From positions 1-51,213 of the forward strand of contig SZXZ01000112.1 in the NCBI GenBank assembly GCA_005843835.1: DNA of 51,213 nucleotides. Reading direction: 5' to 3'. Below the pieces are notes generated by a model. It did not search any database. It was not told the origin of the DNA and was given only the letters and a program-made list of their open reading frames with translations. Position 1 is the first letter of the stretch, and each line of letters starts with the position of its first letter. Shown one piece after another: positions 25,436-27,192 of the stretch. Source of the DNA: Chlorobium sp. Lineage in GTDB: Bacteria; Bacteroidota; Chlorobiia; Chlorobiales; Chlorobiaceae. The translations under genes were made by a program, and so were the position numbers.

Positions 25436-26017
25436 TCAGTAAACAAGTTCTACCCCAAATTCTTTGACGAGGAACTTTATGACCTCATTTTTTTCTGAGA
25501 GTTCCTGAAAAAGGGTAAAAACGGTCTTCTCTTTTGTGCATGCATCTTTTTCGGCATCATAGAGAAGCCGGAGCCTCAACGGCAGTGCATAGAACTCTGA
25601 AACCTGTTTCTGGAGAATTGTCACGTCCTGCTGAAGCTCTTCATAGGAAAACTTTCTGCAGCAAACAATGTCCAGTACCCCGTCTGGACTGCAGGCGGCC
25701 AGTTCACATGACTGAAGGTGCGTTGCCATGAAGTTCTGGGATTTTCTTGCAACATGATCAAGAAACTGCCGCCATTCAACCTTGAGTGATTCAATATCTG
25801 CAACCCTTTCCAGACCTTCAGTATCTCCGGCAAGAATGGCATCAGACGATGGGCTGCTTCGAACATGCTGGGATAATGGATTGGAGGCAAAACCTGAAAG
25901 TTTTTTTTCCCATGATGCCAAGTCAAGATCCCCTTTGCCGGTGCTTTTAGCAACGGATGGAACTGCGGAAATAATCGGAGAAGGCGCTGCGGGTGCTTTC
26001 AGTGGCTTGTCAGGTGC
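25436..26017 (-). CDS. dnaX: DnaX tau C-terminal region, read after a -1 shift
   Basis: This is the -1 frame relative to the dnaX core, open without a stop from the base after the A10 run (GCA at 26017) to the TAG at 25436-25438: 193 codons. It begins with a Pro/Ala/Lys linker (APDKPLKAPAAPSP) and continues into a folded-looking region (ASWEKKLSGFA, VEWRQFLDHVARKSQNFMATHLQSCELA and a leucine-rich end). Domain and position match the C-terminal part of tau, which in other bacteria binds DnaB and the polymerase alpha subunit. It has no start of its own with a ribosome site (a TTG at 25921 is the first candidate), so expression should depend on slippage at 26018-26027. Joined to the core it gives about 585 residues. 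Confidence 0.8.
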   Translation of the reverse strand, partial: APDKPLKAPAAPSPIISAVPSVAKSTGKGDLDLASWEKKLSGFASNPLSQHVRSSPSSDAILAGDTEGLERVADIESLKVEWRQFLDHVARKSQNFMATHLQSCELAACSPDGVLDIVCCRKFSYEELQQDVTILQKQVSEFYALPLRLRLLYDAEKDACTKEKTVFTLFQELSEKNEVIKFLVKEFGVELVY

Positions 26018-27192
26018 TTTTTTTTTTGAGGCGGCTGTTCCAGCTGCATGGCTTGGGGAGAAGCGGCATGAACTATATCAATAAGCTTCAAAAGAGCAAG
26101 CTCGAAACGAAACTGGTATTCAAACTGAAACTTCAGCTCTTTTTGGGTAAGCAAAAGAAAATCAACCATCTGCATGACTGACAAAGACGAAATATTTGCA
26201 GCATCCTGCTGATATCGCTCACGAATCGCATCGGGACGTTCAACTAGTCGTGTGGACGAAAGGTTCTGCACCACCAGGAAATTGCGCAAATGCTCAATCA
26301 GCTTTTCAAGAAAATCCTGTTCGTCGTATCCATTCCTGATCACATACTGAGCAACATCGAGCATTTTGGCTGGATTTCGCTCTGTAACAGCGTCAGTGAC
26401 GGCAAACATCTGATCGTCGTCGATATAGGTCAGCAGTTCGGCAACTCCCTTATAACTGATAGATCCTTCATGATCATTTTCGGCCGAAAAGGCTATAACC
26501 TGATCAAGAATACTCTGTGCATCACGCATTGACCCCTGTGCCTTTCGACCTATAAGCTGCAGGGCGTCTGCGTCCACGGTAATGTGTTCAGCATCACAAA
26601 TAAGCTGCAGCTGCCGCTGGATGTCTTCAAGGGGAATACGCTTGAAGTTGAAGCGCTGGCAACGGGATGCAATTGTAGCCGGAATCTTATGAAGCTCAGT
26701 AGTGGCAAATATAAATATTGCGTGCGGAGGCGGCTCTTCAAGGGTTTTCAAAAACGCATTGAACGCCGCTATTGAAAGCATGTGAACCTCGTCGATAATA
26801 TAAACCCTGTACTTTCCTTTCTGAGGACCATACCGGACATTTTCACGAAGGGTGCGTATATCGTCAACACTGTTATTGGAGGCGGCATCAAACTCAGCTA
26901 TGTTCATACTGGTGCCGGAATCGAAGTCCATACAGCTTTCGCACTCTCCACATGGTTCTGTAACCTGCTGCAGGTAGACAGGATCTTCCATCATTTTCAA
27001 GCAGTTCACTGCTTTGGCAAAAACCCTTGCCGCTGTTGTTTTGCCGACTCCACGCAGTCCTGAAAAAATGTAACCGTGCCCGACCCTTCCCATTCGAAGC
27101 GAGTTCTGAATAGTACGGGTAACATGCTCCTGAGCAGTTATATCGGAAAACTTTGCCGGTCGGTACTTACGGGCTATAACCTGATAACTCAT
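25999..27192 (-). CDS. dnaX: DNA polymerase III gamma/tau subunit, zero-frame (gamma-length) product
   Basis: The clamp-loader ATPase core of the replicase. The 397 residues include the AAA+ domain with Walker A GLRGVGKT (45-52), the zinc-binding Cys cluster (Cys81, Cys84, Cys87 in CGECESC, plus an earlier Cys64), Walker B IIDEVHML, the sensor-type segment IFIFATTELHKIPATIASRCQRF, and domains II-III to about residue 375. The frame then meets CAA followed by a run of A residues and ends five codons later (HLTSH, stop). This is about where E. coli gamma ends, so the zero frame gives a gamma-like protein and a -1 shift gives tau. The start overlaps the stop of the YihY/BrkB gene by 4 bases. Confidence 0.93.
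   Translation of the reverse strand: MSYQVIARKYRPAKFSDITAQEHVTRTIQNSLRMGRVGHGYIFSGLRGVGKTTAARVFAKAVNCLKMMEDPVYLQQVTEPCGECESCMDFDSGTSMNIAEFDAASNNSVDDIRTLRENVRYGPQKGKYRVYIIDEVHMLSIAAFNAFLKTLEEPPPHAIFIFATTELHKIPATIASRCQRFNFKRIPLEDIQRQLQLICDAEHITVDADALQLIGRKAQGSMRDAQSILDQVIAFSAENDHEGSISYKGVAELLTYIDDDQMFAVTDAVTERNPAKMLDVAQYVIRNGYDEQDFLEKLIEHLRNFLVVQNLSSTRLVERPDAIRERYQQDAANISSLSVMQMVDFLLLTQKELKFQFEYQFRFELALLKLIDIVHAASPQAMQLEQPPQKKKHLTSH
26018..26027 (-). other. A10 slippery site in dnaX
   Basis: The dnaX mRNA has ten A residues followed by G (plus-strand T10 at 26018-26027). In the zero frame it reads CAA AAA AAA AAG, containing the A-AAA-AAG heptamer used for -1 frameshifting in E. coli dnaX. One base back, the open tau frame begins. 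I see no convincing Shine-Dalgarno stimulator upstream or strong stem-loop downstream, which favours RNA-polymerase slippage on the long A run, as in Thermus dnaX, over ribosomal shifting. A homopolymer sequencing error is the trivial alternative. Confidence 0.75.

Follow-up and report, generated by a model that had tools for sequence, protein, structure and literature searches.

A class of dnaX genes that are divided over two ORFs and in which tau can be obtained only by recoding was described by Antonov et al., 2013, comprising 17 genes from 12 genera, nine of them with a run of 10 A's (PMC3711429). Shorter runs were reported in the same paper for Chloroherpeton thalassium (A9), Chlorobium chlorochromatii (A8) and C. 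phaeobacteroides (A7), and transcriptional realignment was suggested for these two-ORF genes (PMC3711429). The reversed class was also mentioned by Atkins et al., 2016, where C. phaeobacteroides was put forward as a candidate having stimulators of the E. coli kind and the role of gamma was noted to be long disputed (PMC5009743). Since such stimulators have been reported for C. phaeobacteroides, different members of the class may use different mechanisms.

Here we describe the dnaX gene on a stretch of 51,213 nucleotides of Chlorobium sp. DNA (contig SZXZ01000112.1 of assembly GCA_005843835.1, hereafter the window), which is one more case of the arrangement published in 2013 (PMC3711429). The junction was compared across 88 dnaX genes of the Chlorobiales, a comparison that serves as a natural experiment on the mechanism.

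Results

The zero-frame ORF of dnaX lies on the minus strand (25999–27192) and encodes a gamma-like clamp-loader subunit of 397 aa with AAA+ core, lid and domain III. An NCBIfam profile search gave matches to NF011516 (E = 3e-248) and TIGR02397 (E = 8e-130), and in Pfam the core matched DNA_pol3_delta2, DNAX_ATPase_lid and DNA_pol3_gamma3. NF011516 is a DnaX model of 397 aa that fits the short product end to end, and it exists in NCBIfam beside NF011515, a model of 620 aa, which suggests that standard annotation truncates these DnaX proteins. At its 5' side the dnaX start overlaps by four bases (ATGA, 27189–27192) with the stop of an upstream ORF for a YihY-like membrane protein, and this overlap suggests that the two genes may be translationally coupled.

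On the minus strand the dnaX run consists of exactly ten A's (26027–26018), followed by a G at 26017. The junction is read in the zero frame as CAA AAA AAA AAG CAC CTG ACA AGC CAC TGA, in which the TGA (26001–25999), the gamma terminator of the 10-A register, is found five sense codons past AAG. The -1 frame is open from 26017 to a stop at 25438–25436 and encodes a tau-specific tail of 193 aa (25436–26017, minus strand), which ribosomes would enter on a transcript with 11 (or 8) A's or after shifting by -1. The third frame, which corresponds to 9 or 12 A's, is closed by a TGA (26010–26012, in AGC ACC TGA) at 8 nt past the run; neither of the two non-tau registers stays open for more than 19 nt past the run. 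As the tau frame opens only about 50 nt before the run, its last upstream stop being at 26080–26078, the change of frame must fall in the 80-nt box between that stop and the zero-frame stop (25999–26077), which holds the A10. Together with the G, the final six A's of the run form an A_AAA_AAG heptamer in zero-frame phase (26017–26023), a possible site for a -1 ribosomal shift. The initial annotation, made from the window alone, had described a short zero-frame product ending at 25999 after an A10-G run, a 193-codon -1 frame with a tau-like C terminus ending at 25436, and a heptamer permitting a -1 shift, and each of these was borne out.

Several lines of evidence were obtained for the tail. 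It aligned with the C-terminal 178 positions of NF011515, the model for full-length DnaX of Chlorobi (E = 5e-64). In comparison with 11 relatives of the same genus its dN was 0.18–0.31 and its dS at least 0.87 (0.18 and 0.87, respectively, for the relative L036), and the dN/dS of about 0.2 indicates purifying selection. Ten columns were invariant among 40 tail sequences spanning the Chlorobiales, and the AlphaFold model of the tail showed a C-terminal domain, starting near residue 75, that was predicted with confidence. A search of the tail against Pfam gave no match and a profile search against the PDB no useful match. With the AlphaFold model as query, Foldseek returned weak matches only, of which DnaA domain I was the best (4tps, E 0.005), while E. 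coli tau domain V (2aya, E 0.5) stood far lower in the list. Because of the weakness of these matches, the identity of the tail is based on the Chlorobi DnaX model and on relatives with a continuous ORF, and not on the fold. The tail also contains a run of eight A's (25901–25908, TGG GAA AAA AAA CTT), with SWEKKL here as opposed to SWQKKL in most relatives, and this run is probably not conserved.

Long A runs were also counted in the genome to which the window belongs, a draft of 2.09 Mb in 140 contigs. The count was restricted to runs of A10 or longer and gave 14 sites with both strands included, three of which, dnaX among them, lie within the sense frame of a long ORF. Another in-frame A10 was found at about codon 214, in the linker of an ORF that is FtsK/SpoIIIE-like by sequence (L257:860-3010, G000 C83), and could possibly be a second slippage site of this genome. 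In a permease-like ORF, LptF/LptG-like by sequence (L256:1318-2397, minus strand of the locus), the A10 codes for LSAKKKRGG near the C terminus. At four other A10 sites the ten A's follow an ATG, as if they were codons 2–4.

We searched 98 Chlorobiales genomes, of which 90 gave a match, and were able to read the junction in 88 dnaX genes. The run was A10 in 79 genes, A9 in eight and A11 in one; C. phaeobacteroides and C. chlorochromatii, with their reported A7 and A8, are absent from this sample, and the minimum of A9 holds for those 88 genes. Within the genus of the window, an A10 followed by G was present in 58 of 60 genes, the two exceptions having A9 or A11. Synonymous sites were near saturation even against the closest relatives (dS about 0.9–1.5). 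Elsewhere in the same-genus genes, Lys is encoded by AAA in 50% and Gln by CAA in 11% of the cases; all 53 phase-1 runs that start in a Gln codon use CAA, and the other 19 begin with GAA. Judged from these sequences, the conservation of A10 in the genus is beyond chance. The base after the run was G in nearly all 88 genes, and the A_AAA_AAG phase was kept in about 79 of them. The conservation of the run among relatives, proposed earlier as a check, was thereby confirmed, and no gene combined an uninterrupted frame with the loss of the run, an outcome that had been named as evidence against recoding.

It was found that the zero frame encodes gamma in 73 of the 88 genes and tau in 15. In all 73 genes of the former type tau lies one base back (-1, or one A added), and in the 15 of the latter type core and tail form one continuous ORF in which the same A run is kept. 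The earlier statement that the zero-frame product is reversed with respect to E. coli is thus correct for the window and for these 73 genes, but not as a fixed trait. When mapped on a maximum-likelihood tree that was quickly built from 87 rows of the dnaX core, the zero-frame product changed at least 11 times and the run was never lost; this count, from a single-gene tree with many unstarred forks, became 8 after dropping three rows with a possible homopolymer miscount and 7 after dropping one more. Most switches were indels outside the run: the gene L111 has an extra T in the linker compared to its neighbours, and in a second genus the changes lie downstream of the run. As the product was switched repeatedly while the run stayed, the reversal looks nearly neutral.

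In 86 of the 88 genes a single register reads through to tau, and the remaining two are each closed no more than 32 nt past the run. The statistics of this closure are modest for each gene, with about 4–5% of gene positions being as closed and a synonymous-codon null giving a median p of 0.11 (0.34 for the window). We also looked for the stimulators of E. coli-type frameshifting. Folding of the 70 nt past the run against shuffled sequences gave no signal of downstream structure in the 88 genes (mean z -0.02, 2/88 below -2), and with a z of 0.3 in the window this agrees with the earlier remark that no stem-loop is visible. Likewise, no enrichment of a Shine–Dalgarno (SD) stimulator was detected in the 88 genes (mean z -0.22; window duplex z 0.3), although SD-like sequences are present in four relatives. 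The complete genome of one relative (G075) encodes a separate tRNA-Lys(CUU) beside tRNA-Lys(UUU), and tRNA-Lys(CUU) was found in four further relatives, while for this tRNA the genome of the window gave only a truncated match, located at the edge of a contig and carrying CTT in its anticodon loop.

Discussion

We propose, with a probability of roughly 0.7, that the dnaX gene of the window produces both gamma and tau by slippage of RNA polymerase on the A10 run. The polymerase would add, or less often drop, A's over the run and would so generate a mixture of mRNAs. Translation of transcripts that carry 10 A's or fall in the third register would end a few codons on, yielding gamma of about 393–397 aa, and those with 11 (or 8) A's would enter the downstream frame and give full-length tau of about 585 aa, the tail of which would link the clamp loader to polymerase and helicase. 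As slippage would supply every register, the one written in the DNA, gamma here and tau in some relatives, would matter little. The role of RNA polymerase as the slipping agent, the ratio of tau to gamma, and the production of and need for both proteins are inferred. A replisome is expected to require tau, and an error-prone event would then underlie an essential function. The earlier suggestion that tau probably depends on slippage is supported, and the lean towards a Thermus-like transcriptional process is strengthened by the features weighed below.

Programmed -1 ribosomal frameshifting on A_AAA_AAG, as in E. coli but with tau as the shifted product, is a less probable explanation, and we consider it unlikely. 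In the window, as in most relatives, the heptamer has the phase that such a shift requires, and all genes with gamma in the zero frame need a -1 shift; according to a published rule, a single direction of shift points to ribosomal frameshifting (PMC3711429). Insertion-biased slippage, however, yields an identical pattern in the 73 genes. The heptamer needs only six A's of the run, and the retention of the whole run of 9–11 A's, which ribosomal shifting leaves unexplained, therefore favours slippage. The closure of the third register argues in the same direction, because a -1 ribosomal shift never enters that register. Moreover, in six genes of the same genus that have tau in the zero frame the run is out of the A_AAA_AAG phase, and neither a stem-loop nor an SD signal was detected over the 88 genes. 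A second tRNA-Lys has been argued to disfavour A_AAA_AAG shifting in Thermus and was linked to RNA polymerase slippage (PMC5009743), and the tRNA-Lys(CUU) of the relatives of the window is a similar point against the ribosome. C. phaeobacteroides, the candidate with E. coli-like stimulators, speaks for ribosomal shifting (PMC5009743), and the shorter runs of this species and of C. chlorochromatii (PMC3711429) count against slippage. A ribosomal share in the production of tau is possible, given the uniform direction and the preserved heptamer phase.

The remaining explanations concern the DNA itself or the independence of the tail. Ten-A runs are prone to error and the assembly used here is a draft, so that the real gene could have A11 in a single frame, or a recent frameshift mutation could have abolished tau. 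The initial annotation had noted that a single-base homopolymer error would give the same picture; this was rejected, since the same A10 with a short zero frame is found in dozens of independent assemblies, one of them the genome of a culture, Chlorobium ferrooxidans DSM 13031. In the named-genome collection the tail matches come, apart from this culture genome, nearly all from metagenomic uncultured Chlorobiaceae and Chlorobium sp. As the tail is under purifying selection in the lineage of the window, loss of tau is not a credible reading either. Equally implausible is that gamma and the tail are two separate proteins, the latter made by re-initiation past the zero-frame stop: the tail frame is long and conserved, but it offers no start codon before a TTG at 25921, about 78 nt past the gamma stop, use of which would remove the linker, and core and tail are joined in one continuous ORF in 15 relatives. 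Slippage during replication, by which the population would be a mixture of A10 and A11 cells with tau made by the latter, seems only marginally more credible. Long A runs mutate readily, and A9 and A11 alleles do occur among the species; however, tau is expected to be necessary in every cell, A10 is fixed in nearly all species, and the changes of register are mostly indels outside the run.

RNA polymerase slippage would also give a frame for the switching described above. According to this idea, which we hold to be about as probable as its opposite, the DNA-encoded frame of dnaX is near-neutral in green sulfur bacteria: slippage would supply all registers, selection would act to keep the run with its two flanking stops, while dnaX itself would drift between gamma and tau (at least 7–11 switches over the 87 genes on the tree) with neither product being lost. 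The run is kept also where tau needs no shift, and it can therefore be argued that gamma, as the slippage product, is itself under selection. Recent switching may be an alternative reason for the persistence of the run in single lineages. What is new here is the closure of both other frames, irrespective of the register encoded, and the repeated switching of the zero frame across 88 genes, and on these sequence data the DNA-encoded register appears to be interchangeable.

The window dnaX shares with the class of Antonov et al., 2013 the two adjacent ORFs, the -1 relation at the DNA level, the poly-A at the junction, the dependence of tau on recoding and the proposal of transcriptional realignment, and it does not differ from this class in arrangement; it adds one more species. 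With E. coli dnaX it has in common the A_AAA_AAG in zero-frame phase (26023–26017 in the window). However, E. coli encodes tau in the zero frame and uses an SD sequence and a stem-loop, whereas the window has gamma in the zero frame, ten A's and no signal of either stimulator, and the single tRNA-Lys for AAA and AAG of the E. coli type contrasts with the separate tRNA-Lys(CUU) in relatives. The dnaX of Thermus thermophilus (A9; PMC1088944, PMC5009743) is similar in its long A run, its near stops in both other registers and the origin, proposed for the window, of tau and gamma from one gene. In Thermus tau is the product written in the DNA and gamma arises by slippage, which is opposite to the window, where the 397-aa product is encoded. 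In a small sample from other Bacteroidota orders, 7 of 23 dnaX genes carried A9–A10 at the equivalent position, encoded tau in the zero frame and were soon terminated in the other two registers, a plan that is the same as in Thermus. Restoration of a longer product by slippage on a homopolymer, as proposed here, is also the case for the unrelated gene mxiE of Shigella, as cited in PMC1088944, and a longer product is likewise restored by transcriptional slippage in tssM of Citrobacter rodentium (PMC4256274), again an unrelated gene.
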